DNA from: Comamonas antarctica
GTDB lineage: Bacteria; Pseudomonadota; Gammaproteobacteria; Burkholderiales; Burkholderiaceae_C
Assembly: GCF_013363755.1 (NCBI RefSeq)
Contig: NZ_CP054840.1
Coordinates: 2,969,501-3,033,500 of the forward strand
Length of the DNA stretch: 64,000 bases
Reading direction: 5' to 3'
Below, piece after piece: positions 10,479 through 22,833 of this stretch. The notes under the pieces are model-generated. The model was not told the origin of the DNA. It was given only the letters and a program-made list of their open reading frames with translations, and made no database searches. The position numbers and the translations under genes are program-made. Each line of letters opens with the position of its first letter. Within the stretch, counting starts at the first letter, position 1.

Positions 10479-10505
10479 AAAGCCATCCCTCGGGATGGCT
10501 TTTTT
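10479..10505 (+). terminator. rpoD terminator
   Basis: AAGCCATCC and GGATGGCTT form a perfect stem around a CTCG loop, followed by a T run, 24 bases after the rpoD stop. Rho-independent. Confidence 0.9.
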
Positions 10506-10559
10506 CATGGGCGGCGAGGTTGCGCTGCGCCTGCGCCAGGAACCAGCTCTGCGGGCTGG

Positions 10560-10750
10560 CCATTCATCCTTCGACAGGCTCAGGACGAACGGATGCGGTG
10601 GCGGCGGGCGGGCCATTCATTCTTCGACGGGCTCAGGACGAACGGATACGGCGGCGGGTGGGCCGTTCATTCTTCGACAAGCTCAGGACGAACGGATGCG
10701 GTGGCGGGCGGGCCATTCATCCTTCGACGGGCTCAGGACGAACGGATGTG
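10560..10750. repeat. Four tandem copies of a 50-53-bp repeat
   Basis: Four copies of a unit starting CCATTCATCCTTCGAC (or a close variant) begin at about 10560, 10613, 10663 and 10713. Each has a conserved GGCTCAGGACGAACGGAT core and a diverged GCGGTGGCGGGCGGG linker. The period is 53, 50 and 50 bases. Single copies of the core also occur at 31485-31520 and, inverted, at 52521-52552. The array fills most of the 328-base gap between rpoD and the MaoC gene. It carries no credible reading frame. Confidence 0.9.
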
Positions 10751-10783
10751 GGATGGCTGCGTCCAACCCTCCATGGCCTGTGC

Positions 10784-12332: not shown

Positions 12333-13325
12333 TCAGTAGGCCTTGAAGTTCGCCGCCACGCGCTGGTTCAGATAATCCCCGGCCGAGATCGGCGGGTACT
12401 TGCCGCCCGGGCCTTCGATGATCGCGTCGCGGTTGGCCTGCGCAAAGAACGCCAGGCTGTAGCGCGGGCCCATGTACTCGCCGGGCAACGGGTTCTTCAC
12501 GCGGTGGAAGTTCGAGGGCAGTTGGTCGTCGCTCCAGCGCATCAGCATGTCGCCGATATTGCAGGTGATGGCTTTTTCATCGGGCTCGACCGATGTCCAC
12601 TCCTGGCTCTCCATCTCCTTGCCCGGGCAGACCTGCAGCCCGCCCTGGCCCTGGCGCTGGAACAGCAGGCTCAGGCAGTCGAAGTCGGTGTGCGCACCCG
12701 CGCGCCACAGGCCCAGGCTGGCCTGCTGCTCGGGCGGCGTCGCAAAATAGTGCAGCAGGCGCAGCGTGCTCTGGTAGCTCTGCTGCGCCGGGTCGTGCGC
12801 GCGCAGGAAGAAGCCGTCGTCGAAGCCGAGCTTGAACGCAAAGCACGACAGCACCTGCATCGCCACCTGCCAGCACTGGCCCTCGAAGGCCAGCATGGTG
12901 GCCTGGAAGCCAGCCAGCTCCTGTTCGCTGGGCCACAGGCCCTGCATGTGCGGGCGCGTGATCTGGTAGGACTCCTTCTGGTCCGGCGTGCCGGTCGAGG
13001 GGCGCACCTGGGCGCGGCTTTCCCAGCCGACGTTGAGCGCCTTCTTCAACGGGTATTGCGCCTTCACATCGTCCGGCAGCGCGAAGAAGCGCTCGGCCAT
13101 CGCAAACGCTTCGTGCACATCATCGAGCGCGATGCCATGGTTCACGACCTGGAAGAAGCCGACATCGACGGCGGCGTCCCAGAGCTGGTTGGCAATCTCG
13201 GTCTTGCGCTGCTCGAAATTCGACAGGTCGATCTTGCGGATCTCGCGGCTGCGGCTCTCGGAGCCCATCGCGCCCATGCGCGTTTCCTTTTGCAACTCGG
13301 TCAGGTCGTAGGTGGCGGTGTTCAT
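12333..13325 (-). CDS. Isopenicillin N synthase-like 2OG-Fe(II) oxygenase
   Basis: Non-haem iron, probably 2-oxoglutarate-dependent dioxygenase of 330 residues. The N-terminal DIOX_N-like half (QLWDAAVDVGFFQVVNHGI) is followed by the jelly-roll core. It carries iron ligands H-x-D in GAHTDFDCLSLLFQ, His in SNFHRV, and the 2OG-binding R-x-S in PRYSLAFF. This family includes thymine 7-hydroxylase and other small-molecule hydroxylases. A GGAG site precedes ATG 13325. It is divergent from the nucleoside deaminase and lies at the edge of the nitrogen-compound catabolic region, suggesting a hydroxylation step there. The substrate is not deducible. Confidence 0.88.
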   Translation of the reverse strand: MNTATYDLTELQKETRMGAMGSESRSREIRKIDLSNFEQRKTEIANQLWDAAVDVGFFQVVNHGIALDDVHEAFAMAERFFALPDDVKAQYPLKKALNVGWESRAQVRPSTGTPDQKESYQITRPHMQGLWPSEQELAGFQATMLAFEGQCWQVAMQVLSCFAFKLGFDDGFFLRAHDPAQQSYQSTLRLLHYFATPPEQQASLGLWRAGAHTDFDCLSLLFQRQGQGGLQVCPGKEMESQEWTSVEPDEKAITCNIGDMLMRWSDDQLPSNFHRVKNPLPGEYMGPRYSLAFFAQANRDAIIEGPGGKYPPISAGDYLNQRVAANFKAY

Positions 13326-13575
13326 GCGGTTCTCCAGAATCTAGCGGTGAAAACAAGGGTCTTCCCGCGTGCGGCTTCAGGCCGCCGGACACCCGGCATG
13401 CCGCTGAAACCACGGGCGCCTGGGCGCTTGCGGGCTTCAGAGCAATTTCCGGCTGGCCAAGTCCCATCGTCGGACCGCACAGTGAACGCTTCTACTCCTG
13501 CAACCGGTCAAGCAAGAAGAATGCCTGGCATGCAAAGTGCATGGCGCAGCGCATTGCCACTTCCTGGAGACCGCC

Positions 13576-14103
13576 ATGTCCGCCCTCGTATTCGCCACGC
13601 CCCTGCCGCTCGAAGAACCCGCGCCGCTGGGCGACACCGACGGCACCTATCTGCGCCAGGCCATTGCGCTGTCGGGCACGGCGCGCGCGCGCGGCAACCG
13701 GCCGTTTGGCGCGGTGGTGGTCGATGCGCAAGGCGCCCTGCTGGCCGAAGCCTATTGCAGCACCACCGAAACCGGCGACTGCACCGCGCATGCCGAGACC
13801 AACGCCGTGCGCCAGCTCAGCCCCCGGGTCCCGCGCGAGGTGCTGGCCCAGGCCACGCTGTACTCGTCGGCCGAGCCCTGCGTGATGTGCGCGGGCGCAA
13901 TTTTCTGGTCGGGCATCGGCCGCGTGGTGTTCGGCATCGATGCGGTGCGGCTGCGCGTGTTCCGCGGCGAGCGCGCCGAGCAGCGCGATGCCGAGCTGTC
14001 CTGCCGCGATGTGTTTGCCGCGTCGCCGCACGAGATCGAATGCATCGGCCCGGCGCTGATCGACGAGGCCAGCCTGCCGCATGTGGGCTTCTGGAAGGCA
14101 TGA
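13576..14103 (+). CDS. Nucleoside deaminase (CMP/dCMP deaminase fold)
   Basis: Zinc-dependent deaminase of 175 residues in the cytidine/guanine/tRNA-adenosine deaminase superfamily. The zinc site is visible as HAETNAVR (His ligand plus catalytic Glu) near residues 75-82 and PCVMCAGAIFWSG (two Cys ligands) near residues 102-114. ATG 13576 has a CTGGAGA ribosome site 6 bases upstream. It lies 46 bases before the TetR gene. It is not the tRNA-editing TadA by context; a free base or nucleoside substrate is more likely. Confidence 0.88.
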   Translation: MSALVFATPLPLEEPAPLGDTDGTYLRQAIALSGTARARGNRPFGAVVVDAQGALLAEAYCSTTETGDCTAHAETNAVRQLSPRVPREVLAQATLYSSAEPCVMCAGAIFWSGIGRVVFGIDAVRLRVFRGERAEQRDAELSCRDVFAASPHEIECIGPALIDEASLPHVGFWKA

Positions 14104-14149
14104 AGCAGGCAGAATCGGCAAGTTTGCTGCATCTCCCCTGCCCTTGCCC

Positions 14150-14806
14150 ATGACCGAACCCGAAGCCGAGATTCCTGCCGGCGCCCTGCCCAGCCGCGCG
14201 CGGCAAGGCCGCGAACGCATCCTGGACGCCATCCGCGAAGCGGCCATTGCCGAGTTCAGCCGGCATGGCTTCAAGGGCGCGTCGACCAAGGCCATTGCCG
14301 AGCGCGCGGGCCTCACCAAGCCCCAGCTGCACTATTACATCAGCAGCAAGGAAGAGCTTTACGAGGAACTGCTGTATTCGGTGCTGGGTGGCTGGTCGAG
14401 CGCCTTCGTGTTCGATATCGACAGCGACGACCCGCGCACGGTGCTTGCCGGCTATGTGCGCAAGAAGCTCGACTACGCGCTCGACAACCCGGGCCTGTCG
14501 CGCATCTTCACGACCGAGGTGCTGGGCGGCGGCCGCAACCTGGGCAAGTACTGGCCGGTGGCCGTGAAATCCACGCAGCAGAAGGTCGAGCTGATCAAGC
14601 GCTGGATCGCCGAAGGCCGCATGCGCGCGCTCGACCCCACGCTGCTGCTGATGCAGATCTGGGGCATGACCCAGCACTACGCCGACTACGGCGTGCAGGT
14701 GCACATCATGCTGGGCCTCGCGCCCGACGAACCCATCGACCGCGAACCCATCGTGCGCGAGCTCACCACTTTTGTGCTGCTGGGCTGCGGCCTCGCACCA
14801 GAATAG
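14150..14806 (+). CDS. TetR family regulator with RutR-like C-terminal domain
   Basis: Repressor of 218 residues. The N-terminal helix-turn-helix spans about residues 20-65 (AEFSRHGFKGASTKAIAERAGLTKPQ, then LHYYISSKEELYEELL). The C-terminal part resembles the RutR group of pyrimidine-responsive regulators (LSRIFTTEVLGGG, and IWGMTQHYADYGVQV near residues 170-185). It directly precedes the catabolic operon that begins with a TTTGACCA-type palindrome, which resembles the RutR half-site TTGACCA. Regulation of that operon by a pyrimidine-like ligand is an inference. ATG 14150 is used; the upstream in-frame part overlaps the deaminase gene. Confidence 0.88.
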   Translation: MTEPEAEIPAGALPSRARQGRERILDAIREAAIAEFSRHGFKGASTKAIAERAGLTKPQLHYYISSKEELYEELLYSVLGGWSSAFVFDIDSDDPRTVLAGYVRKKLDYALDNPGLSRIFTTEVLGGGRNLGKYWPVAVKSTQQKVELIKRWIAEGRMRALDPTLLLMQIWGMTQHYADYGVQVHIMLGLAPDEPIDREPIVRELTTFVLLGCGLAPE

Positions 14807-14890
14807 GCAGGCGCCGCACGCTGGCGGGCATCCGCGCAGCCGGCCCACGCGCTTCGTGCAGGGAGCACGCTGGCACAGCATTTGCAAGAG

Positions 14891-14921
14891 TTTGACCATT
14901 CGATCAAATCAAATGGTCAAA
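14891..14921 (+). promoter_or_regulatory. Palindromic operator of the heterocycle-type catabolic operon
   Basis: TTTGACCATT (14891-14900) and AATGGTCAAA (14912-14921) are perfect 10-bp inverted arms around 11 bases, ending one base before the ferredoxin ATG. Inside is an overlapping second half-site GATCAAA. RutR of E. coli recognises TTGACCA..TGGTCAA, and the adjacent TetR gene is RutR-like. No ribosome-binding sequence fits between operator and start codon. Confidence 0.65.
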
Positions 14922-14922
14922 C

Positions 14923-15225
14923 ATGCAAACCACTGCTTCCATTGCTGCGTCGCCTGCCATCGAACAGGCCTTTGAACTGGTGCTGGCACGCAGCCAGATG
15001 CGCCTGACGGTCGAGCCCGGCGAAAGCATGGCCGACGTGCTGCAGCTTGCCGGCATTGCCGTCGACACGCTGTGCGAGCAAGGCGTCTGCGGCACCTGCG
15101 CCACGCGCTGGCTGGACGGAAGTCCCGAACACCGCGACAGCTGCCTGAGCGCCGAGGAGCGGCGCACCCATGTCGCCGTGTGCTGCGCACGCAGCCATGG
15201 CGCTGCCCTCACCCTCGATCTCTGA
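14923..15225 (+). CDS. Plant-type 2Fe-2S ferredoxin
   Basis: Stand-alone electron carrier of 100 residues. It contains the plant-type cluster motif C-x4-C-x2-C in LCEQGVCGTC (about residues 50-59) and a fourth Cys near residue 87 (VAVCC). It resembles the C-terminal ferredoxin domain of phthalate/vanillate oxygenase reductases (FELVLARS start, EQGVCGTC core). ATG 14923 gives this whole domain, but no Shine-Dalgarno is visible and the operator abuts the ATG, so translation may be leaderless. It heads the operon. No Rieske oxygenase is present nearby, so its partner is unknown. Confidence 0.9.
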   Translation: MQTTASIAASPAIEQAFELVLARSQMRLTVEPGESMADVLQLAGIAVDTLCEQGVCGTCATRWLDGSPEHRDSCLSAEERRTHVAVCCARSHGAALTLDL

Positions 15226-15235
15226 GGGCCGGGCC

Positions 15236-15823
15236 ATGCGCGTTCTTGTCATCTATTGCCACCCGGTCGAGACCAGCTACCAGGCGGCGCTGCACACCGA
15301 GGTCGTGCTCAACCTGCGCAGCGCGGGGCATGAGGTCGACGATTGCGATCTGTATGCCGAAGACTTCAACCCGGTGCTGAGCCGCGAGGAGCGCCTGGGT
15401 TACCACGAGGTGCCCGGCAACCGCGTGCCGGTGCAGGGCTATGTCGACCGCCTGCTGTGGGCCGAGGCCGTGGTGTTTTGCTTTCCCACCTGGTGCTTCG
15501 GCATGCCGGCCATGCTCAAGGGCTTTTTCGACCGCGTGCTGATGCCCGGCGTGGCCTTCGACATCAGCGACCCGCAGCATGTCAAGTCCGCACTGACCCA
15601 TCTCAAGCGCATCTCGGCCGTCGTGACCTATGGCCGGCCGCGCTGGACCGCGCTGCTGATGGGCGATCCGCCGCGCAAGTCGGTGACGCGCTACCTGCGC
15701 CTGCTCACGGGCGGCAAGGCGCGCGTCGACTACCACGCTTGCTACCACATGAACGTGGCCACACCGCGGCGCCTCGAAGCCTTCAAGGCACGCGTGGGCG
15801 ATGCGATGGCGCGCTTTGCCTGA
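15236..15823 (+). CDS. Flavodoxin-fold NAD(P)H-dependent oxidoreductase
   Basis: FMN-binding reductase of 195 residues, related to NQO1/MdaB-type quinone reductases. The N-terminus MRVLVIYCHPVETSYQAALH is the phosphate-binding strand-loop. The FCFPTWCFGMPAMLKGFFDRVLMPG segment (about residues 81-105) is the family's flavin-contact motif. It starts 10 bases after the ferredoxin stop and ends 11 bases before the amidohydrolase, so it is clearly in one operon. It could reduce the ferredoxin or a heterocyclic intermediate. Confidence 0.88.
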   Translation: MRVLVIYCHPVETSYQAALHTEVVLNLRSAGHEVDDCDLYAEDFNPVLSREERLGYHEVPGNRVPVQGYVDRLLWAEAVVFCFPTWCFGMPAMLKGFFDRVLMPGVAFDISDPQHVKSALTHLKRISAVVTYGRPRWTALLMGDPPRKSVTRYLRLLTGGKARVDYHACYHMNVATPRRLEAFKARVGDAMARFA

Positions 15824-15834
15824 AGGAGACCGGC

Positions 15835-17148
15835 ATGCACGCTCCCGAACATCTTCTTGCTGCCCGGCTGCCACGCTGGCTGCTGCCCGCGCAATGGCCC
15901 GACATCGGGGGCCAGCCCGCGCTGGCTGATCTGCATCTGGCCCAGGGCCGCGTACTGGGCCTGGCGCCGCACGACCCGGCATTCGTTGCCCCCTCAGGCA
16001 ATGCCTGGGCCCTGCACGGCGCGCTGGTGCTGCCCGGCCTGGTCGACGCGCACACGCATCTCGACAAGACCTTCACGCTGCCGCGCATGGGCGAGGTCGA
16101 GCCCGGCCTGCTGGGGGCCATCGAAGCCATGATGGCCGACCGCCAGGACTGGACCGAGGCCGATATCCACGCCCGCGCCAGCCGCGCGCTGCAATGGGCT
16201 TGCGAAGCCGGCACGGTGCACCTGCGCACGCACTGCGACTGGTGGGAGCCCGAGGCCATGCCGCTGGCGTGGAACGTATTGCGCGAGTTGGCGCAGGAAT
16301 GGGCCGGCCGCCTGCTGCTGGAGCGCGTGGCGCTGATTCCGCTGCACCTGTTCGCCGAGCGCGATACCGCGCTGCGCCTGGCAAGCACGGTGGCCGCGAG
16401 CGGCCCGGGCGCACTGCTGGGCGGCTTCGTGCACTCCACCAACTGGAACCCGCAGGCGCTGCGCCATCTGTTCGAGGCCGCGCAAATCCATGGTCTGGAT
16501 GTCGATCTGCATGTCGACGAGGAACTGCACCCCGGCGCGCAGGGCCTGGCCACGGCGGCGGCGCTGCTGCAGGAGCTGCGCTTCGAGGGCCGGGTGGTCT
16601 GCGGCCATGCCTGCGCGCTGGCCGCGCAGGACGAAGCCGCGGCACTGGCCACGCTCGATGCCGTGGCGCAATGCCCGGTCACGCTGGTCACGCTGCCGAT
16701 CACCAACCTGCTGCTGCAGGACGCGACCACGGGCCGCACGCCGCGCCAGCGCGGGCTCACGCTGGTCAAGGAAGCGCGGGCCCGCGGCATTCCGGTGCTG
16801 GTCGCCAGCGACAACGTGCAAGACCCGTTCTGCGCGGTCGGCAGCTTCGATCCGCTCGAAGCCCTGGCCGCGGGCGTGCTCGCCGCGCAGCTCGAGCAGC
16901 CCTTCGACCGCTGGTCCGAGTCGCTGTGCCGCGCCGACTGGCTGCGCCGCGGCGCGCCCGCAGTGCCGCTGGCGCCCGGCAGCAGCGCCGATCTGATCGT
17001 CTTCCAGCAGGCAGACGCCTGGGGCTTTCCTTCGCGCACCCAGCCGCGCGTGGTGCTGCGCCAGGGCCGGGTCGTCAGCGGCGAGGCGTCCAGCGCCTGG
17101 TCTTTTGCCTCCTCTCACCGTCCCGTTCTCGCAAGGAGCCTCGCATGA
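15835..17148 (+). CDS. Cytosine deaminase-like amidohydrolase
   Basis: Metal-dependent hydrolase of 437 residues in the amidohydrolase superfamily, closest by motif to CodA cytosine deaminase and related ring-opening or deaminating enzymes. Visible metal and catalytic elements are HTHLDK (about residues 73-78), LHVDEEL (about 224-230), GHACAL (about 255-260) and ASDNVQDPF with the catalytic Asp (about 324-332). An AAGGAG site precedes ATG 15835. Its stop overlaps the RidA start (ATGA). A cyclic amidine or lactam substrate is likely given the flanking genes, but this is inference. Confidence 0.88.
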   Translation: MHAPEHLLAARLPRWLLPAQWPDIGGQPALADLHLAQGRVLGLAPHDPAFVAPSGNAWALHGALVLPGLVDAHTHLDKTFTLPRMGEVEPGLLGAIEAMMADRQDWTEADIHARASRALQWACEAGTVHLRTHCDWWEPEAMPLAWNVLRELAQEWAGRLLLERVALIPLHLFAERDTALRLASTVAASGPGALLGGFVHSTNWNPQALRHLFEAAQIHGLDVDLHVDEELHPGAQGLATAAALLQELRFEGRVVCGHACALAAQDEAAALATLDAVAQCPVTLVTLPITNLLLQDATTGRTPRQRGLTLVKEARARGIPVLVASDNVQDPFCAVGSFDPLEALAAGVLAAQLEQPFDRWSESLCRADWLRRGAPAVPLAPGSSADLIVFQQADAWGFPSRTQPRVVLRQGRVVSGEASSAWSFASSHRPVLARSLA

Positions 17149-17606
17149 GCGCCTCTCCCTCGGGCATTGCCCAACCCCTGGCACGCTACGCCGCCTGGCG
17201 CCGCGCGGGCGACCTGGTGTTCCTCTCCGGAATCATCGCCGTCGACCCGGCGGCCGGCCGCATCGTGCGCGGCTATGCCGACATTCCCGATGACGCGGCC
17301 ACGCTGATCGGCCGCACCGGCGAGTTCAGCAGCGACATCAAGGAAGGCCCGATCCTCGCGCAGAGCTGGCATGTGCTGGACGCCATCCGCCAGACCATCG
17401 AAGCCGCGGGCGGGCAGATGTCGGATGTGGTCAAGCTGGTGCAGTACTTCAGGAACCTCGACCACTTCCCGCAGTACAGCCGCGTGCGCAAGCTGTTCTT
17501 TCCGGGCGAGCCGCCCGCATCGACCGTGGTCGAGGTCAGCGCCATGCTGCCCACGCCCGAGATCCTGATCGAAGTCGAAGCCACGGCCTGGCTGCCCCAG
17601 CGCTGA
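17145..17606 (+). CDS. RidA family protein (RutC-like)
   Basis: YjgF/YER057c/UK114-type protein of 153 residues; such trimers hydrolyse reactive enamines and imines, and RutC of the uracil pathway belongs here. The family core is visible as AGDLVFLSGIIAVD (about residues 20-33), then IEAAGGQMSDVVKL and STVVEVSAMLPTPEILIEVEA near the end. The start overlaps the amidohydrolase stop by four bases (ATGA), with an AAGGAG site inside the preceding gene, so translation is coupled. In this operon it probably handles an unstable intermediate after ring opening or deamination. Confidence 0.92.
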   Translation: MSASPSGIAQPLARYAAWRRAGDLVFLSGIIAVDPAAGRIVRGYADIPDDAATLIGRTGEFSSDIKEGPILAQSWHVLDAIRQTIEAAGGQMSDVVKLVQYFRNLDHFPQYSRVRKLFFPGEPPASTVVEVSAMLPTPEILIEVEATAWLPQR

Positions 17607-17637
17607 CACCCTCCCCCCTCCGCCGAAAGACCGCTCC

Positions 17638-18501
17638 ATGCTGCATGGCTACAACCCGCCCCACCGCTTCCTGCCCTATCTGAGCTGGACCGAGATCGCC
17701 GACCTGCCCGACAAGGAAAACACCGTGATCGTGCTGCCCACGGGAGCGACCGAGCAGCACGGCCCGCACCTGCCCTGTGCCGTCGATACGGTGATCAGCG
17801 CCGGGGTCGTGGGCCATGCGCTGGCGCATCTGCCCCCCGAGGTGCCGGCGTTTGCAATGGCGCCGATCACCTACGGCAAGTCGGAGGAGCACCTGCACTT
17901 CCCGGGCACCGTGACGCTCAGCGGCGAGACGCTGCTGGCGACGATGAACGAGATCGGCGAGTCGGTCTACCGCGCGGGCTTTCGCAAGCTGCTGTTCGTC
18001 AACGGCCATGGCGGCCAGCCGCAGGTGATGGAGATGTGCGCGCGCGAGCTGCGCCTGCGCCATGGCGATTTCATCGTCGTGCCGAGTTTCACCTGGCGCG
18101 TGCCGCATGTGGCCGGCAAATACCTGTCGGACACCGAAAAGAAGCTGGCCATGCACGCGGGCCATGCCGAGACCGCGCTGATGCTCGCGCTCGCGCCCGA
18201 CACCGTGCACATGGAGCGCGCCGTCACCAACTACCCGCCCGTCTTTGACTCGCCACTGCTGTCGCCCGACGGCCGGCCGGCCTGCGCCTGGAGCGCGCGC
18301 GACTTCGGGCCGAGCGGAATCATCGGCGACCCGCTGCCCGCGACCGCCGAGCAGGGCCTGGCGATTCTCGACTCGCTGGCCAGAAGCTGGGCCGCGGCCA
18401 TCACCGAGCTGCACCAGCTGCAATGGGCGGCGCGCCCCGAGCCCACCTGGGGCCGCGCCAACCACACCGGCCATGTGGAGCACTCCAGCGCGCTGGCCTG
18501 A
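17638..18501 (+). CDS. Creatininase family amidohydrolase
   Basis: Metal-dependent cyclic-amide hydrolase of 287 residues. Metal ligands typical of the family are seen in GATEQHGPHLPCAVDT (Glu, His, Asp; about residues 39-54), in FVNGHGGQ (about 119-126) and in HAGHAET (about 177-183). Members open creatinine, formamidopyrimidine or related lactams. It starts 31 bases after the RidA gene and is followed 56 bases later by the importer. The ring-opening assignment is a family-level inference. Confidence 0.9.
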   Translation: MLHGYNPPHRFLPYLSWTEIADLPDKENTVIVLPTGATEQHGPHLPCAVDTVISAGVVGHALAHLPPEVPAFAMAPITYGKSEEHLHFPGTVTLSGETLLATMNEIGESVYRAGFRKLLFVNGHGGQPQVMEMCARELRLRHGDFIVVPSFTWRVPHVAGKYLSDTEKKLAMHAGHAETALMLALAPDTVHMERAVTNYPPVFDSPLLSPDGRPACAWSARDFGPSGIIGDPLPATAEQGLAILDSLARSWAAAITELHQLQWAARPEPTWGRANHTGHVEHSSALA

Positions 18502-18557
18502 AAACTGCGAAGCCCTCCCCGTCCCACCCCCTGTCCTGCCCCTTCCGGAGTATTGCC

Positions 18558-19550
18558 ATGCTGAAGACCGCTTCCCGCCTCCCCCAACTTGGTGCCGCCG
18601 CGCTGCTCGCTCTTGGTGCCCTCGGCACCGCGCAGGCGCAGGAAAAGTTCACCTATATGACCAACTGGTATGCGCAGGCCGAGCACGGCGGCTTCTACCA
18701 GGCCGTGGCCACGGGCCTGTACAAGAAGTACGGCCTCGACGCGACCATCAAGATGGGCGGCCCCCAGGTCAACATCGTGCAGATGATGGCCGCAGGCCAG
18801 GCCGACTGCGTGATGGGATCGAGCGACCTGCAGATGATCCAGATGCGCGAAGGCGGCGTGCCCGTGACCAATGTCGCCGCGGTGTTCCAGAAGGACCTGC
18901 AGGTGCTGATCGCGCACGACGACGTGAAGAAGTTCGAGGACCTCAAGGGCAAGACCATTCTCATCGGCTCGTCGGCGCAGCGCGGCTACTGGCCCTGGCT
19001 CAAGGCGAAGTACGGCTTCACCGATGCCCAGACGCGCCCCTACACCTTCAACATCCAGCCCTTCGTGGCCGACAGGAACACCGCCCAGCAGGGCTATCTG
19101 ACGTCCGAGCCATTTGCCATTGCCAAGGCCGGCGTCAAGACCACCACGCTGATGTTCAGCGACCAGGGCTTCCCCGCGTACGCGACCACGGTGTCGTGCA
19201 TGGACAAGACGCTCAAGGCGCGCAGCGCCGCGGTGGCGGCCTTCGTCAAGGCCTCGATGGAAGGCTGGAAGAGCTACCTCGCCGACCCGGCGCCCGGCAA
19301 CGCGCTGATCAAGAAGGACAACCCGAACATGACCGACGAACAGCTGGCCTACAGCGTCGCCAAGCTCAAGGAACTGGGCATGGTCACGGGTGGCGACGCG
19401 GCCAGCATGGGCATAGGCGTGCTGACCGATGCGCGCGCCAAGGCGAGCTACGACTTCCTCGTCGAGACCAAGCTCATCGACCCGGCCAAGGTCAAGCTGG
19501 CCGATACCTACAGCACCCAGTTCGTCAAGGACCTCAAGGTCCTGCCCTGA
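18558..19550 (+). CDS. ABC transporter substrate-binding protein, NMT1/THI5-like
   Basis: Periplasmic binding protein of 330 residues with a signal peptide ending near ALGTAQAQ (about residue 28). The first strand TNWYAQAEHGGFYQAVATG is the hallmark of the NMT1/THI5-like group that includes binding proteins for pyrimidine and thiamine precursors, and resembles those more than taurine or nitrate receptors. It is followed by the cognate ATPase and permease. With the CodA-like and creatininase genes this argues for import of a pyrimidine-like or other N-heterocycle. Confidence 0.9.
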   Translation: MLKTASRLPQLGAAALLALGALGTAQAQEKFTYMTNWYAQAEHGGFYQAVATGLYKKYGLDATIKMGGPQVNIVQMMAAGQADCVMGSSDLQMIQMREGGVPVTNVAAVFQKDLQVLIAHDDVKKFEDLKGKTILIGSSAQRGYWPWLKAKYGFTDAQTRPYTFNIQPFVADRNTAQQGYLTSEPFAIAKAGVKTTTLMFSDQGFPAYATTVSCMDKTLKARSAAVAAFVKASMEGWKSYLADPAPGNALIKKDNPNMTDEQLAYSVAKLKELGMVTGGDAASMGIGVLTDARAKASYDFLVETKLIDPAKVKLADTYSTQFVKDLKVLP

Positions 19551-19604
19551 GCCTCAGTGCAGCCCTGAAACAGAGGCTTCGGCCCCATACATCGAAAGGC
19601 GACC

Positions 19605-20444
19605 ATGAACCCCGATGCATCCCCGCCCGCCACCGCCGCGCCCGCCGCTGCACACGCCGCTGCACACGCCGTGGAGGTGCTGTCGGCCGAGAAGACCTAT
19701 CCCAACGGCACCCAGGCGCTGCTGCCCGTGGACCTGTGCATAGAGGAAGGCGAATTCGTCACGCTGCTCGGTCCCTCGGGCTGCGGCAAGAGCACGCTGC
19801 TGAAGATGGTGGCCGGGCTGCTCGAGCCCACCGACGGCCGGCTGCAGCTGTGGCGCAAGCCCGTGGCGCAGCTCGAGGAGAGCGGCAAGAAGATGGCCTT
19901 CGTGTTCCAGTCGCCGACGCTCATGCCCTGGGCCAGCGTGCAGACCAATGTGCGCCTGCCGCTGGACCTGGCGGGCGTGCCGCGCGCCGAGGCCGATGCG
20001 CGCGTGGGCGAAGCGCTGGCCCTGGTCGGCCTGGCGAAATTTTCCAAGGCGCTGCCGCGCGCGCTGTCGGGCGGCATGCAGATGCGGGTGTCGATTGCGC
20101 GCGGGCTGGTGACCCAGCCCGACCTGCTGCTCATGGACGAGCCGTTTGGCGCGCTTGACGAGATCACGCGCCACAAGCTCGATGCCGACCTGCTGGACCT
20201 GTGGCGCAAGAAGAAGCTCACCGTGATCTTCGTCACGCACTCCATCCACGAGGCGGTGTTTCTCTCCAGCCGCGTGGTGATGATGGCCGCGCGCCCGGGC
20301 CGCGTGGTCGAGGAATTCCGCATCGACGCGCCCTACCCGCGCAGCGCCGATTTCATGGTCTCGCCCGAATTCAACCGCTACGCCAGGCTGCTGCAGGACA
20401 GCCTGCTGCGTGCCAGCGCCGACTCCATGGAGGCATTTGCATGA
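19605..20444 (+). CDS. ABC transporter ATP-binding protein (NitT/TauT type)
   Basis: Cytoplasmic ATPase of 279 residues. Walker A GPSGCGKST lies near residues 63-71, the Q-loop in VFQSPTLMPW, the signature LSGGMQMR near residue 156, Walker B LLLMDEPFGALDE near 175-187 and the switch His in VTHSIHEA. An Ala/Pro-rich 25-residue leader precedes the domain. Its stop overlaps the permease start (ATGA), so the two are coupled. Confidence 0.93.
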   Translation: MNPDASPPATAAPAAAHAAAHAVEVLSAEKTYPNGTQALLPVDLCIEEGEFVTLLGPSGCGKSTLLKMVAGLLEPTDGRLQLWRKPVAQLEESGKKMAFVFQSPTLMPWASVQTNVRLPLDLAGVPRAEADARVGEALALVGLAKFSKALPRALSGGMQMRVSIARGLVTQPDLLLMDEPFGALDEITRHKLDADLLDLWRKKKLTVIFVTHSIHEAVFLSSRVVMMAARPGRVVEEFRIDAPYPRSADFMVSPEFNRYARLLQDSLLRASADSMEAFA

Positions 20445-21334
20445 GCACCCCATTTCCCTCTGTGGCTGCGGCCGACATGCCGCGCGCCGAGCCGGCTGCG
20501 CCCGCCATTGCCCAGCGCCAGCCGGCGGTGCGCACGAAGCCCGCGCGCACGCCGCTGCTGCGGCAGCCGCGCGTGCAGCGCGTGCTCTATCCCTTGCTGG
20601 TCGGCGTGGCCTTGCTTGCGCTGTGGCAGGGCCTGGTCACGGGGCTGGAGCTGCCGCCCTATCTCGTGCCCTCGCCGCTGCTGATGCTCGAGACGCTGAT
20701 CGCCGACTGGGCGCCGCTGGGCGCGTCGCTGTGGGTCACGATCAAGATCACGCTGCTGGCCTTCATTGCCGCGACCGTTGCCGGCGTGCTGATCTCCTTT
20801 CTGTTCGTGCAGAGCAAGGGCATAGAGACCGCGCTGTTTCCCTATGCCGTGCTGCTGCAGGTCACGCCCATCGTGGCCGTCGCGCCGCTGATCATCATCT
20901 GGGTCAAGGACCCGACGGCATCGATGGTGATCTGCGCGGCGCTGGTGGCGCTGTTTCCCATCATCAGCAACACCACGCTGGGCCTGCGCAGCATCGAGCC
21001 CGACCTGCAAAGCTACTTCCAGCTCAACCGCGCGACCCGGCTGCAGACGCTGGTGCGGCTGCGCATCCCGAGCGCGCTGCCCTACTTCTTTGGCGGGCTG
21101 CGCATCTCCAGCGGCCTGGCGCTGATCGGCGCCGTCGTCGCCGAGTTCGTTGCGGGCACGGGCGGCGCGGGCGCGGGCCTGGCCTACCAGATCCTGCAGG
21201 CCGGCTTCCAGCTCAACATCCCGCGCATGTTTGCCGCGCTGCTGCTGATCTCGCTGACCGGCGTGGGGATGTTCGTGCTGATGGCGTGGCTTAGCCGCCT
21301 GGCATTGGGCAGCTGGCATTCCAGCGAGAACTAA
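20441..21334 (+). CDS. ABC transporter permease (NitT/TauT type)
   Basis: Inner-membrane permease of 297 residues with about six helices after a 45-residue cytoplasmic N-terminus. The EAA-type coupling loop is in LQSYFQLNRATRLQTLVRLRIPSALPYFFGGL (split here: SYFQLNRATRLQ and IPSALPYFFGGL), typical of taurine/nitrate/pyrimidine importers. The ATG lies inside the end of the ATPase gene. A dispersed palindromic repeat starts directly after the stop codon. Confidence 0.92.
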   Translation: MSTPFPSVAAADMPRAEPAAPAIAQRQPAVRTKPARTPLLRQPRVQRVLYPLLVGVALLALWQGLVTGLELPPYLVPSPLLMLETLIADWAPLGASLWVTIKITLLAFIAATVAGVLISFLFVQSKGIETALFPYAVLLQVTPIVAVAPLIIIWVKDPTASMVICAALVALFPIISNTTLGLRSIEPDLQSYFQLNRATRLQTLVRLRIPSALPYFFGGLRISSGLALIGAVVAEFVAGTGGAGAGLAYQILQAGFQLNIPRMFAALLLISLTGVGMFVLMAWLSRLALGSWHSSEN

Positions 21335-21336
21335 CG

Positions 21337-21430
21337 CACCCCCTGAGCCGCTTCGCGTCTTCCCCCTCTCAACCTTCGGTGGAGGGGGACGGCGCCCTCG
21401 CTGCGGGGCGGCCCTTGCTCGGCGCCCCCC
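21337..21430 (+). repeat. Dispersed intergenic repeat, copy 1
   Basis: One of five copies in this window of a roughly 90-150-bp element. It begins CACCCCCTGAGC, contains CTCAACCTTCGGTGGAGGGG in the middle and ends GCGGGGCGGCCCTTGCTCG-like. The element contains several self-complementary segments and is always between genes. Here it separates the permease and FAD-oxidase genes. Confidence 0.85.
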
Positions 21431-21465
21431 ACTCTCCCGTTTTTGAACGAGCGCCTAACCAAATC

Positions 21466-22833
21466 ATGACCACCACCGCCGCCCACCAGCTCCCCGAACA
21501 ACTGCCCGATCTCGACTGGATCACCGACCCGCTGCGCGTGGGCCGTCTCTCGCAGGACTTTGCCTGGTTCAGCCCGGTGCTCAAGCGCGAACTCGCGGGC
21601 AAGCGCGCCGAGATCGCCGTGCGCCCGCGCAGCGAGGACGAGATCCGCCAGGTGGTCGCGGCCTGCGCCAGCGCCGGCATTCCGATCACCGTGCGCGGCA
21701 GCGGCACGGGCAACTACGGCCAGTGCACGCCTTTGCACGGCGGCGTGATACTGGACCTGTCGGCCTACAACGCGTTTGGCTGGGTGCGCGGCGGTGTCGG
21801 CCGGGCCCAGGCCGGCATCCGCCTCGCCGACTTCGACGCGCAGGCCAAGCCGCTGGGCCAGGAGCTGCGCTGGCTGCCCTCGACCTACCGCAGCGCGACG
21901 CTGGGCGGCCTGTTCGGCGGCGGCTTTGGCGGCGCGGGCTCGATCAACCACGGCCCGCTGGCCGCGCCCGGCAATGTGCTGGCGGTGCGCGCGATGAGCG
22001 TGGAGCCCGACCCGCAGGTCATCGAGCTGCGCGGCGCCGAAGCCATGCGGCTGCACCATACCTACGGCACCAACGGCATCGTGCTCGAACTCGAAGTCGC
22101 GCTCACGCCGGCCATCGCCTGGACAGAATGCATCGCCAGCTTCGACGACTTCGATGCGGCGCTGGAATTTGCCGACCGCTTCGCCTGCGCGCCGGGCCTG
22201 GAGAAAAAGGAAGTCTGCTTCCTGGCCGCGCCGATTCCCGAATACTTCACCAGCCTCGCCGAGCACCTGCGCGCGGGCTGCCACGCCGTGCTGCTGCTGG
22301 TCGCGCCGCACTCCGAGGCCGGCATGCGCGAGATGGCGGCGCTGCATGGCGGGCAGATCAGCTACCGCAAGACAGCCGAGGAGGTGAAGGCCGGCAACAA
22401 GACGCTGGTCGAATACACCTGGAACCACACCACGCTGCATGCGCTCAAGATCGACAAGAACCTGACCTATATCCAGAGCGGCTTCACCCCCCAGCGCCGC
22501 ATCGAACAGGTCAAGGCGCTGCAGGCCGCGCTGCAGGGCGAGGTGATGATGCACCTCGAATTCCTGCGCACCAAGGAAGGCGCGCCCAACTGCAGCGGCC
22601 TGCAGCTCATCCGCTACACCACCGAGGAACGGCTCAACCAGATCATGCAGATCCACCGCGACCATGGCGTGCAGATCAACAACCCGCATGTCTACATCGT
22701 CGAGGACGGCAAGCAGAACAACCTCGACCCGGCGGTGGTGGCCACCAAGCAGCGCTTCGATCCGCAGGGGCTGCTCAATCCGGGCAAGCTGCGCAGCTGG
22801 GAGGCCGTGCAGCCCGTGCGCCAGACGGCCTAG
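21466..22833 (+). CDS. FAD-binding (VAO/PCMH-type) oxidoreductase
   Basis: Flavoprotein of 455 residues with an FAD-binding PCMH domain. IAVRPRSEDEIRQVVAACA (about residues 47-65), then TVRGSGTGNYGQCTPLHGGV and TLGGLFGGGFGGAGSINHG carry the pyrophosphate-binding loops. The C-terminus ends FDPQGLLNPGKL, as in GlcD/D-lactate dehydrogenase relatives. It follows the importer after one dispersed repeat and may still be cotranscribed, oxidising a hydroxy-acid or alcohol product. Its stop codon overlaps the stop of the convergent Bug-receptor gene. Confidence 0.88.
   Translation: MTTTAAHQLPEQLPDLDWITDPLRVGRLSQDFAWFSPVLKRELAGKRAEIAVRPRSEDEIRQVVAACASAGIPITVRGSGTGNYGQCTPLHGGVILDLSAYNAFGWVRGGVGRAQAGIRLADFDAQAKPLGQELRWLPSTYRSATLGGLFGGGFGGAGSINHGPLAAPGNVLAVRAMSVEPDPQVIELRGAEAMRLHHTYGTNGIVLELEVALTPAIAWTECIASFDDFDAALEFADRFACAPGLEKKEVCFLAAPIPEYFTSLAEHLRAGCHAVLLLVAPHSEAGMREMAALHGGQISYRKTAEEVKAGNKTLVEYTWNHTTLHALKIDKNLTYIQSGFTPQRRIEQVKALQAALQGEVMMHLEFLRTKEGAPNCSGLQLIRYTTEERLNQIMQIHRDHGVQINNPHVYIVEDGKQNNLDPAVVATKQRFDPQGLLNPGKLRSWEAVQPVRQTA

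Follow-up and report, generated by a model that had tools for sequence, protein, structure and literature searches.

Which compound is taken up and dismantled by the genes at positions 12,333 to 22,833 of a 64,000-nucleotide stretch of the Comamonas antarctica genome (contig NZ_CP054840.1, positions 2,969,501 to 3,033,500; hereafter the window)? Comparison of the encoded proteins with their relatives suggests that they probably import and break down the pterin (2-amino-4-oxopteridine) ring of folate-type molecules as the products of one catabolic operon. What is new is that pterin catabolism appears linked here to a xanthine riboswitch and to a RutR-like repressor with its own operator site; switch and site would tie the cluster to purine control. 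To our knowledge, few genes have been assigned to the dismantling of the folate pterin ring, and a search of the open literature by title and start of abstract found no paper on such a pterin-ring cluster. Two questions meet at this locus and can be put to a direct test there: what compound the switch senses, and which amidohydrolase acts as the pterin deaminase.

Organization of the Cluster

The features of the cluster, in window coordinates, are as follows.

12333..13325, minus strand: 2-oxoglutarate (2OG)-Fe(II) oxygenase of the isopenicillin N synthase type (pcbC-like), Pfam DIOX_N and 2OG-FeII_Oxy; candidate pterin/purine ring hydroxylase
13435..13502, minus strand: xanthine riboswitch aptamer (NMT1 RNA, Rfam RF03054), leader of the 2OG gene
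13576..14103 (refined start), plus strand: cytidine deaminase (CDA)-fold nucleoside/guanine-type deaminase, Pfam dCMP_cyt_deam_1
14081..14806 (start 14081 or 14150), plus strand: RutR-like TetR repressor, Pfam TetR_N with YcdC-like C terminus
14892..14920, no strand assigned: putative operator TTGACCA-N15-TGGTCAA ahead of the ferredoxin gene, a palindrome found by searching the genome itself and relatives
14923..15225, plus strand: 2Fe-2S ferredoxin, Pfam Fer2; aligns with part of PDR/VanB reductases
15236..15823 (refined start), plus strand: flavodoxin-fold NAD(P)H oxidoreductase, Pfam Flavodoxin_2
15835..17148 (refined start), plus strand: AmH1, CodA-like amidohydrolase, Pfam Amidohydro_3; proposed pterin-ring 2-amino deaminase
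17145..17606 (refined start), plus strand: RidA-family enamine/imine hydrolase, Pfam Ribonuc_L-PSP
17638..18501, plus strand: creatininase-family amide hydrolase, Pfam Creatininase (243 bits)
18558..19550, plus strand: NMT1/THI5-type periplasmic binding protein, Pfam NMT1
19605..20444, plus strand: ATP-binding cassette (ABC) transporter ATPase, from the gene call
20441..21334 (refined start), plus strand: ABC transporter permease, from the gene call
21466..22833 (refined start), plus strand: flavin adenine dinucleotide (FAD)-dependent, VAO-fold enzyme, Pfam FAD_binding_4; proposed flavin oxygenase

Pfam domains of all of the named families scored above cut-off, and every gene named in a preliminary description of the locus is present where it had been placed. 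The short gaps and ATGA overlaps reported there between 14923 and 21334 were also found, at 10, 11, −4 (ATGA), 31, 56, 54, and −4 (ATGA) bp, with the FAD gene starting 131 bp past the permease gene. The same description had seen one compact set, which is accurate for the contiguous plus-strand genes but not for the 2OG gene, located on the minus strand and divergent from the gene for the CDA-fold deaminase (closest solved relatives: CMP/dCMP-type, TadA, and guanine deaminases). It had overlooked the riboswitch and the operator palindrome.

Conservation among Relatives

Species genomes were scanned with AmH1 as bait, the best 80 of 266 relatives were kept, and counts were made on the 62 loci with a length of ≥21 kb, which include some near-identical strains; a gene was taken as present at ≥45% identity within 9.5 kb. 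The cluster is one conserved unit with importer, deaminase, and amide hydrolase families. The NMT1 receptor, ATPase, and permease genes occur in 62/62 long relatives, those for the creatininase and the FAD enzyme in 61/62 each, the flavodoxin-fold gene in 56/62, and the TetR gene in 55/62; the CDA-fold deaminase (19/62) and 2OG (15/62) genes are less frequent, and RidA (32/62) and ferredoxin (20/62) are the weak point of the conservation. The neighborhood, the conservation of which the preliminary description had named as a point to check, is nearly invariant in its core. The genes that follow the FAD gene in the window (a Bug receptor and CaiB) are conserved in only two of the 62. The commonest order, TetR-ferredoxin-flavodoxin-AmH1-RidA-creatininase-NMT1-ATPase-permease-FAD, was observed in 19/62, and in 18/62 it appears without ferredoxin and RidA.

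On plasmids of Pantoea, Klebsiella, and Rahnella, the same core is preceded by a PDR/VanB reductase gene and lacks a relative of the flavodoxin-fold gene. The window ferredoxin is 40–48% identical to the PDR reductases of these clusters, and the window RidA is 69–75% identical to its enterobacterial counterparts. Divergent from the Klebsiella and Rahnella clusters lie genes for a receptor, for AmH2 (a second amidohydrolase), and for a 2OG oxygenase that is 70% identical to that of the window; a search for further 2OG homologs added no information. More distant versions of the cluster are found on plasmids of Rhizobium, Nitratireductor, and Roseateles. One locus labeled Pantoea (L013) has genes 83–97% identical to those of the window and is perhaps a mislabeled record.

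Two additional gene sets were seen beside the cluster. Locus L030 (1–6160) and several Acidovorax-type loci contain a second, upstream operon with an NMT1 receptor, an ABC transporter, a 2OG oxygenase (30% identical to that of the window), and a deaminase (36%), which has its own xanthine riboswitch. Locus L051 (185–4169, minus strand) has a second, diverged AmH1-NMT1-FAD set (35–41%) beside the main cluster on the opposite strand, which may serve a related pathway for a different heterocycle.

The FAD Enzyme and a Putative Link to Folate

The best solved match to the window FAD enzyme is PDB entry 6v42, titled as a folate-catabolism flavin oxygenase; the two proteins are homologous over nearly their whole length. 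A cluster in Rhizobium etli contains a 66% relative of 6v42, and in a phylogenetic tree these two group at 100/99 support, and the window enzyme belongs to a distinct clade of 20 rows (100/100). The operon partners were compared on the R. etli stretch, where the FAD enzyme (as represented by 6v42/6v43), a CodA-like amidohydrolase, a creatininase, an NMT1 ABC importer, and an NAD(P)H oxidoreductase (49% identical between the window and R. etli) have relatives in the window. The R. etli relative of RidA is weak (32% over half the length), and the R. etli cluster differs from the window in having a LysR regulator, a urea amidolyase, and an amidase. From these comparisons, the window cluster appears to belong with folate/pterin catabolic systems, as a relative in which some parts and the control are new. 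The term "undescribed" in the preliminary description is not supported, as a homologous FAD enzyme had already been deposited for folate catabolism; the refuting case named there, an identical cluster with an assigned pathway, applies in part, the cluster being homologous rather than identical.

A second, Nitratireductor-type FAD enzyme adjoins the main cluster or shares its genome in L114 (2760–6213, minus strand), L115 (7459–12263), L118 (15840–17231), L110 (11910–13166), and L035 (16165–17610), and in L114 and L115 it has its own AmH1 relative and creatininase. It is perhaps a second ring-opening step or part of a sister pathway.

Two Amidohydrolases of the System

The metal-site residues of AmH1 (His73, His75, His226, Glu229, His258, and Asp326) are invariant in 23 sequences. 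AmH2 is a close relative of the structure 2paj, which we take to be an isoxanthopterin deaminase: the Klebsiella protein scores 673 bits to 2paj and 236 to the 8-oxoguanine deaminase 7ww2, and that of locus L080 (Ramlibacter) 672 and 264, respectively. The copies in Klebsiella and Rahnella share 87% identity; these two and those of L080 and genome G408 pass the PRK12393 model and fall below the 8-oxoguanine deaminase cut-off. An isoxanthopterin deaminase is described, with citation of Hall 2010, in the available part of PMC5270733.

A total of 399 genomes of the family were scanned for the FAD gene (E ≤ 1e-130), AmH2 (E ≤ 1e-110), and AmH1 (E ≤ 1e-60), which were found in 37, 19, and 44 genomes, respectively. 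Eight genomes have both the FAD gene and AmH2, which in seven of them are no more than 4 kb apart. Of the 37 with the FAD gene, 29 have AmH1 (≥50% identity) at a distance of at most 10 kb. AmH2 was linked in 5/8 FAD-gene genomes without a nearby AmH1 versus 2/29 with one (p = 0.002), a test in which G300 and G308 count as lacking AmH1 owing to the 50% identity threshold, and the p value of which, like those of 2e-21 and 9e-5 also obtained, is overstated since related genomes are not independent. A replacement of AmH1 by AmH2 in all five genomes was considered and rejected, as G300 and G308 have AmH1 relatives of 43 and 42%, leaving G395, G403, and G408 as the clean cases. In G403 the order is TetR-flavodoxin-creatininase-NMT1-ATPase-permease-FAD-RidA-Rieske-AmH2, with a flavodoxin–creatininase gap of 22 bp (by match ends) at the place expected for AmH1; in G395 and G408 AmH2 follows the permease gene inside the operon, and no AmH1 match was found on their contigs. 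In G546 AmH1 lies on another contig. Taken together, AmH2 is part of the system and, judging by the three clean cases, may take the place of AmH1, although the exchange is not strict. Relatives of 2paj are found in or beside the operon in Klebsiella, Rahnella, the Ramlibacter-type L080, and seven genomes of the family, whereas the window genome has AmH1 and the CDA-fold deaminase instead.

AmH1 relatives (54–55%) are also found on atrazine plasmids, in L092 (15025–16356; plasmid pADP-1) and L103 (10908–12212), where they come after the AtzT transporter genes beside the cyanuric acid genes and directly ahead of an IS1182-like element. The available part of PMC6834077 names no function for such a relative.

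The Xanthine Riboswitch and the Case for Purine Oxidation

The riboswitch scores 40.3 bits against a gathering threshold of 36, lies 109 nt before the 2OG start, and is the sole match in the 5.0-Mb genome; its core letters are invariant in seven aligned copies. A scan with stricter filters, which may miss weak riboswitches, found none in 14 control genomes and located it in 75 of the 399 genomes of the family, that is in 32/37 with the FAD gene versus 43/362 without; by genus, the proportions are 15/20 and 29/121. Of the 32 genomes that have both, 10 have the riboswitch no more than 15 kb from the FAD gene, and of the 19 genomes with AmH2, 9 have it within 7 kb of that gene. A pattern for the core matched 29 of the 90 loci examined, namely 28/80 genome loci and the Klebsiella stretch, where it precedes the 2OG gene, the receptor and AmH2 genes, or, in L016 and L019, a receptor-deaminase-deaminase-TetR series. 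Rfam matches were obtained in L012, L026, L030, L048, L080, Klebsiella, and Rahnella; the same search of the Pantoea, Nitratireductor, R. etli, and Roseateles stretches and of L056 found none. In G649, G521, G302, and other genomes of the family, xanthine riboswitches often form head-to-head pairs about 100–350 bp apart.

The available part of PMC7373994 describes this class as an OFF control associated with pcbC-like oxygenases, NMT1 genes, PRK12393 amidohydrolases, and tadA-like deaminases, states that the precise functions of the associated dioxygenases are not established, lists isoxanthopterin among the purchased compounds, and interprets the class as a control of purine oxidation. The PRK12393 family is that of AmH2 here, and the window riboswitch has the conserved core and the place before a pcbC-like 2OG gene, differing from the published reading in being tied to a pterin-type catabolic cluster. 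Purine oxidation is the strongest alternative: the guanine-type deaminase and the 2OG oxygenase would make xanthine and urate from guanine or hypoxanthine, and the remaining enzymes would open the oxidized purine to urea. Besides the published role of the switch, the guanine-type relatives of the CDA-fold deaminase fit this scheme, as does the pADP-1 relative of AmH1 (55%), located after the genes of a transporter with a receptor, AtzT, that retained guanine. We nevertheless consider it unlikely, as the closest solved relative of the FAD enzyme is assigned to folate, and the FAD-linked AmH2 is nearer to 2paj than to 7ww2 and below the 8-oxoguanine deaminase cut-off.

The RutR-like Repressor and the Case for a Single-ring Substrate

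The best solved relative of the TetR protein is E. coli RutR (3loc, E 9e-27), and the repressor alignment keeps the motif with RutR Trp167 and Gln171, presumably the uracil contacts. The palindrome TTGACCA-N15-TGGTCAA directly precedes the ferredoxin start and occurs once in the 5.0-Mb genome (control, 0); half sites at the N15 spacing were observed in 24/82 relatives, including L055, where the middle differs. The half sites are those that we take to be the RutR consensus, and the RidA protein is RutC-like, while the spacing is 15 bp in the window and presumably 2 in Rut. These similarities suggest that the repressor is RutR-like and responds to a uracil-like compound; an aminouracil formed during pterin breakdown would fit that role.

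These same families (CodA-, RutC-, RutR-, and NMT1-like) and the kept Trp167 and Gln171 are what speaks for the single-ring pyrimidine or lactam pathway of the preliminary description, with substrates such as hydroxymethylpyrimidine or hydantoin-like compounds. That description had set the cluster apart from the Rut and creatinine pathways, and rightly so: scores against the curated NCBIfam models lie below cut-off for the two Rut proteins searched for, RutR (131.9 bits, cut-off 368) and RutC (54 of 169), for creatininase (EC 3.5.2.10; 103 of 235), and for the cytosine deaminase PRK07583 (317 of 403), so that the window proteins are relatives and not members of these families. In AmH1, moreover, Pro and Asn align with CodA Gln156 and Asp314, residues presumed to have defined roles in that enzyme. 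Together with the pterin-linked partners, the 6v42-like FAD enzyme and the linked AmH2, which indicate the two fused rings of a pteridine, these differences make a single-ring substrate improbable, and with 6v42 deposited as a folate-catabolism oxygenase the single-ring, undescribed reading is not supported. Creatinine use by a creatinine deaminase and a creatininase, for which both broad families are present, is highly improbable given the creatininase score and the lack of creatinase or sarcosine oxidase annotations among the annotated relatives, where these were not otherwise searched for.

Proposed Pathway for the Pterin Ring

The proposal of pterin catabolism builds on the homology, gene order, linkage, and co-occurrence described above; its steps and their order are inferred from enzyme families and context. 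The NMT1 ABC importer would bring in the pteridine, and the 2OG oxygenase would hydroxylate the pyrazine ring toward isoxanthopterin. Some relatives have Rieske oxygenases with the cluster (by Pfam, two after the riboswitch and receptor in L080; one before AmH2 in L111). AmH1, possibly helped by the CDA-fold deaminase, would remove the 2-amino group to give a 7-oxolumazine, and the FAD enzyme would then oxygenate or open the pyrazine ring with electrons from the ferredoxin and/or the flavodoxin-fold reductase or, in enterobacteria, from the PDR reductase. The resulting amide would be hydrolyzed by the creatininase-family enzyme, in keeping with the action of ArfB, related to that family, on a formamidopyrimidine, and RidA would hydrolyze the amino-uracil enamine. 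The remaining ureide would pass to urea-handling enzymes, hints of which are UreD adjoining 15/82 loci, the urea amidolyase of R. etli, and a urease in the window genome. The RutR-like repressor would act on its palindrome, and the riboswitch would control the oxygenase. A route from isoxanthopterin to xanthine-8-carboxylate was reportedly found by McNutt; we know of no gene for its isomerase. Through such a route pterin breakdown would yield a xanthine-like product and connect with the xanthine switch.

A wider proposal is offered tentatively, as a possibility that we hold to be the lesser one. The xanthine riboswitch class may at least in part be a switch of pterin catabolism, with a regulon including pterin hydroxylases, an isoxanthopterin deaminase, and the present cluster, and its natural ligand in these bacteria may be a lumazine-type or xanthine-like product of pterin breakdown with the dioxopyrimidine edge of xanthine. 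With the RutR-like repressor, it would gate the full conversion of the folate pterin ring into urea, the pterin deaminase being one or another of several unrelated enzymes (CodA-like, 2paj-like, and perhaps CDA-fold).

Several observations weigh against pterin catabolism as the function of the cluster. The putative folate link of the FAD enzyme is taken from a PDB title, and the window enzyme is 41% identical to 6v42, in a sister clade and not the same one. The nature of 2paj is our presumption, and a search of the window genome for a deaminase of this type gave a best match of 28% (E 6e-11), that is, none. AmH1 and AmH2 occur together in loci L048, L063, L080, and L088 and, linked to the FAD gene, in G345 and G456; G300 encodes AmH2, the 43% AmH1 relative, and a second FAD enzyme of the Nitratireductor type in a single row of genes, and in G308 a comparable set, with its 42% relative, is located on another contig. 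The core is present in G557 with neither amidohydrolase on its contig, and in G362 both are absent from the contig while the CDA-fold deaminase (73%) and the riboswitch site are kept. RutR senses uracil, the Klebsiella, Rahnella, and Pantoea clusters have no TetR gene, and no 2OG, TetR, or riboswitch was present within the R. etli stretch seen. In 22/32 genomes with both, the riboswitch and the FAD gene are widely separated or located on different contigs, and the class binds xanthine (KD about 3.7 μM) and uric acid (about 25 μM), according to the available part of PMC7373994.

Repeats in and near the Cluster

The gap between the permease and FAD genes (21335–21465) contains a GC-rich block (CCCCCTGAGCCGCTTCGCG...GGTGGAGGGGGACGGCGCC), which presumably resembles a dispersed repeat of this bacterial family. 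Short repeats with recurring translations (FDKLRTNG/FILRRAQDER type) follow rpoD at 10500–10760 of the window and are probably dispersed elements.

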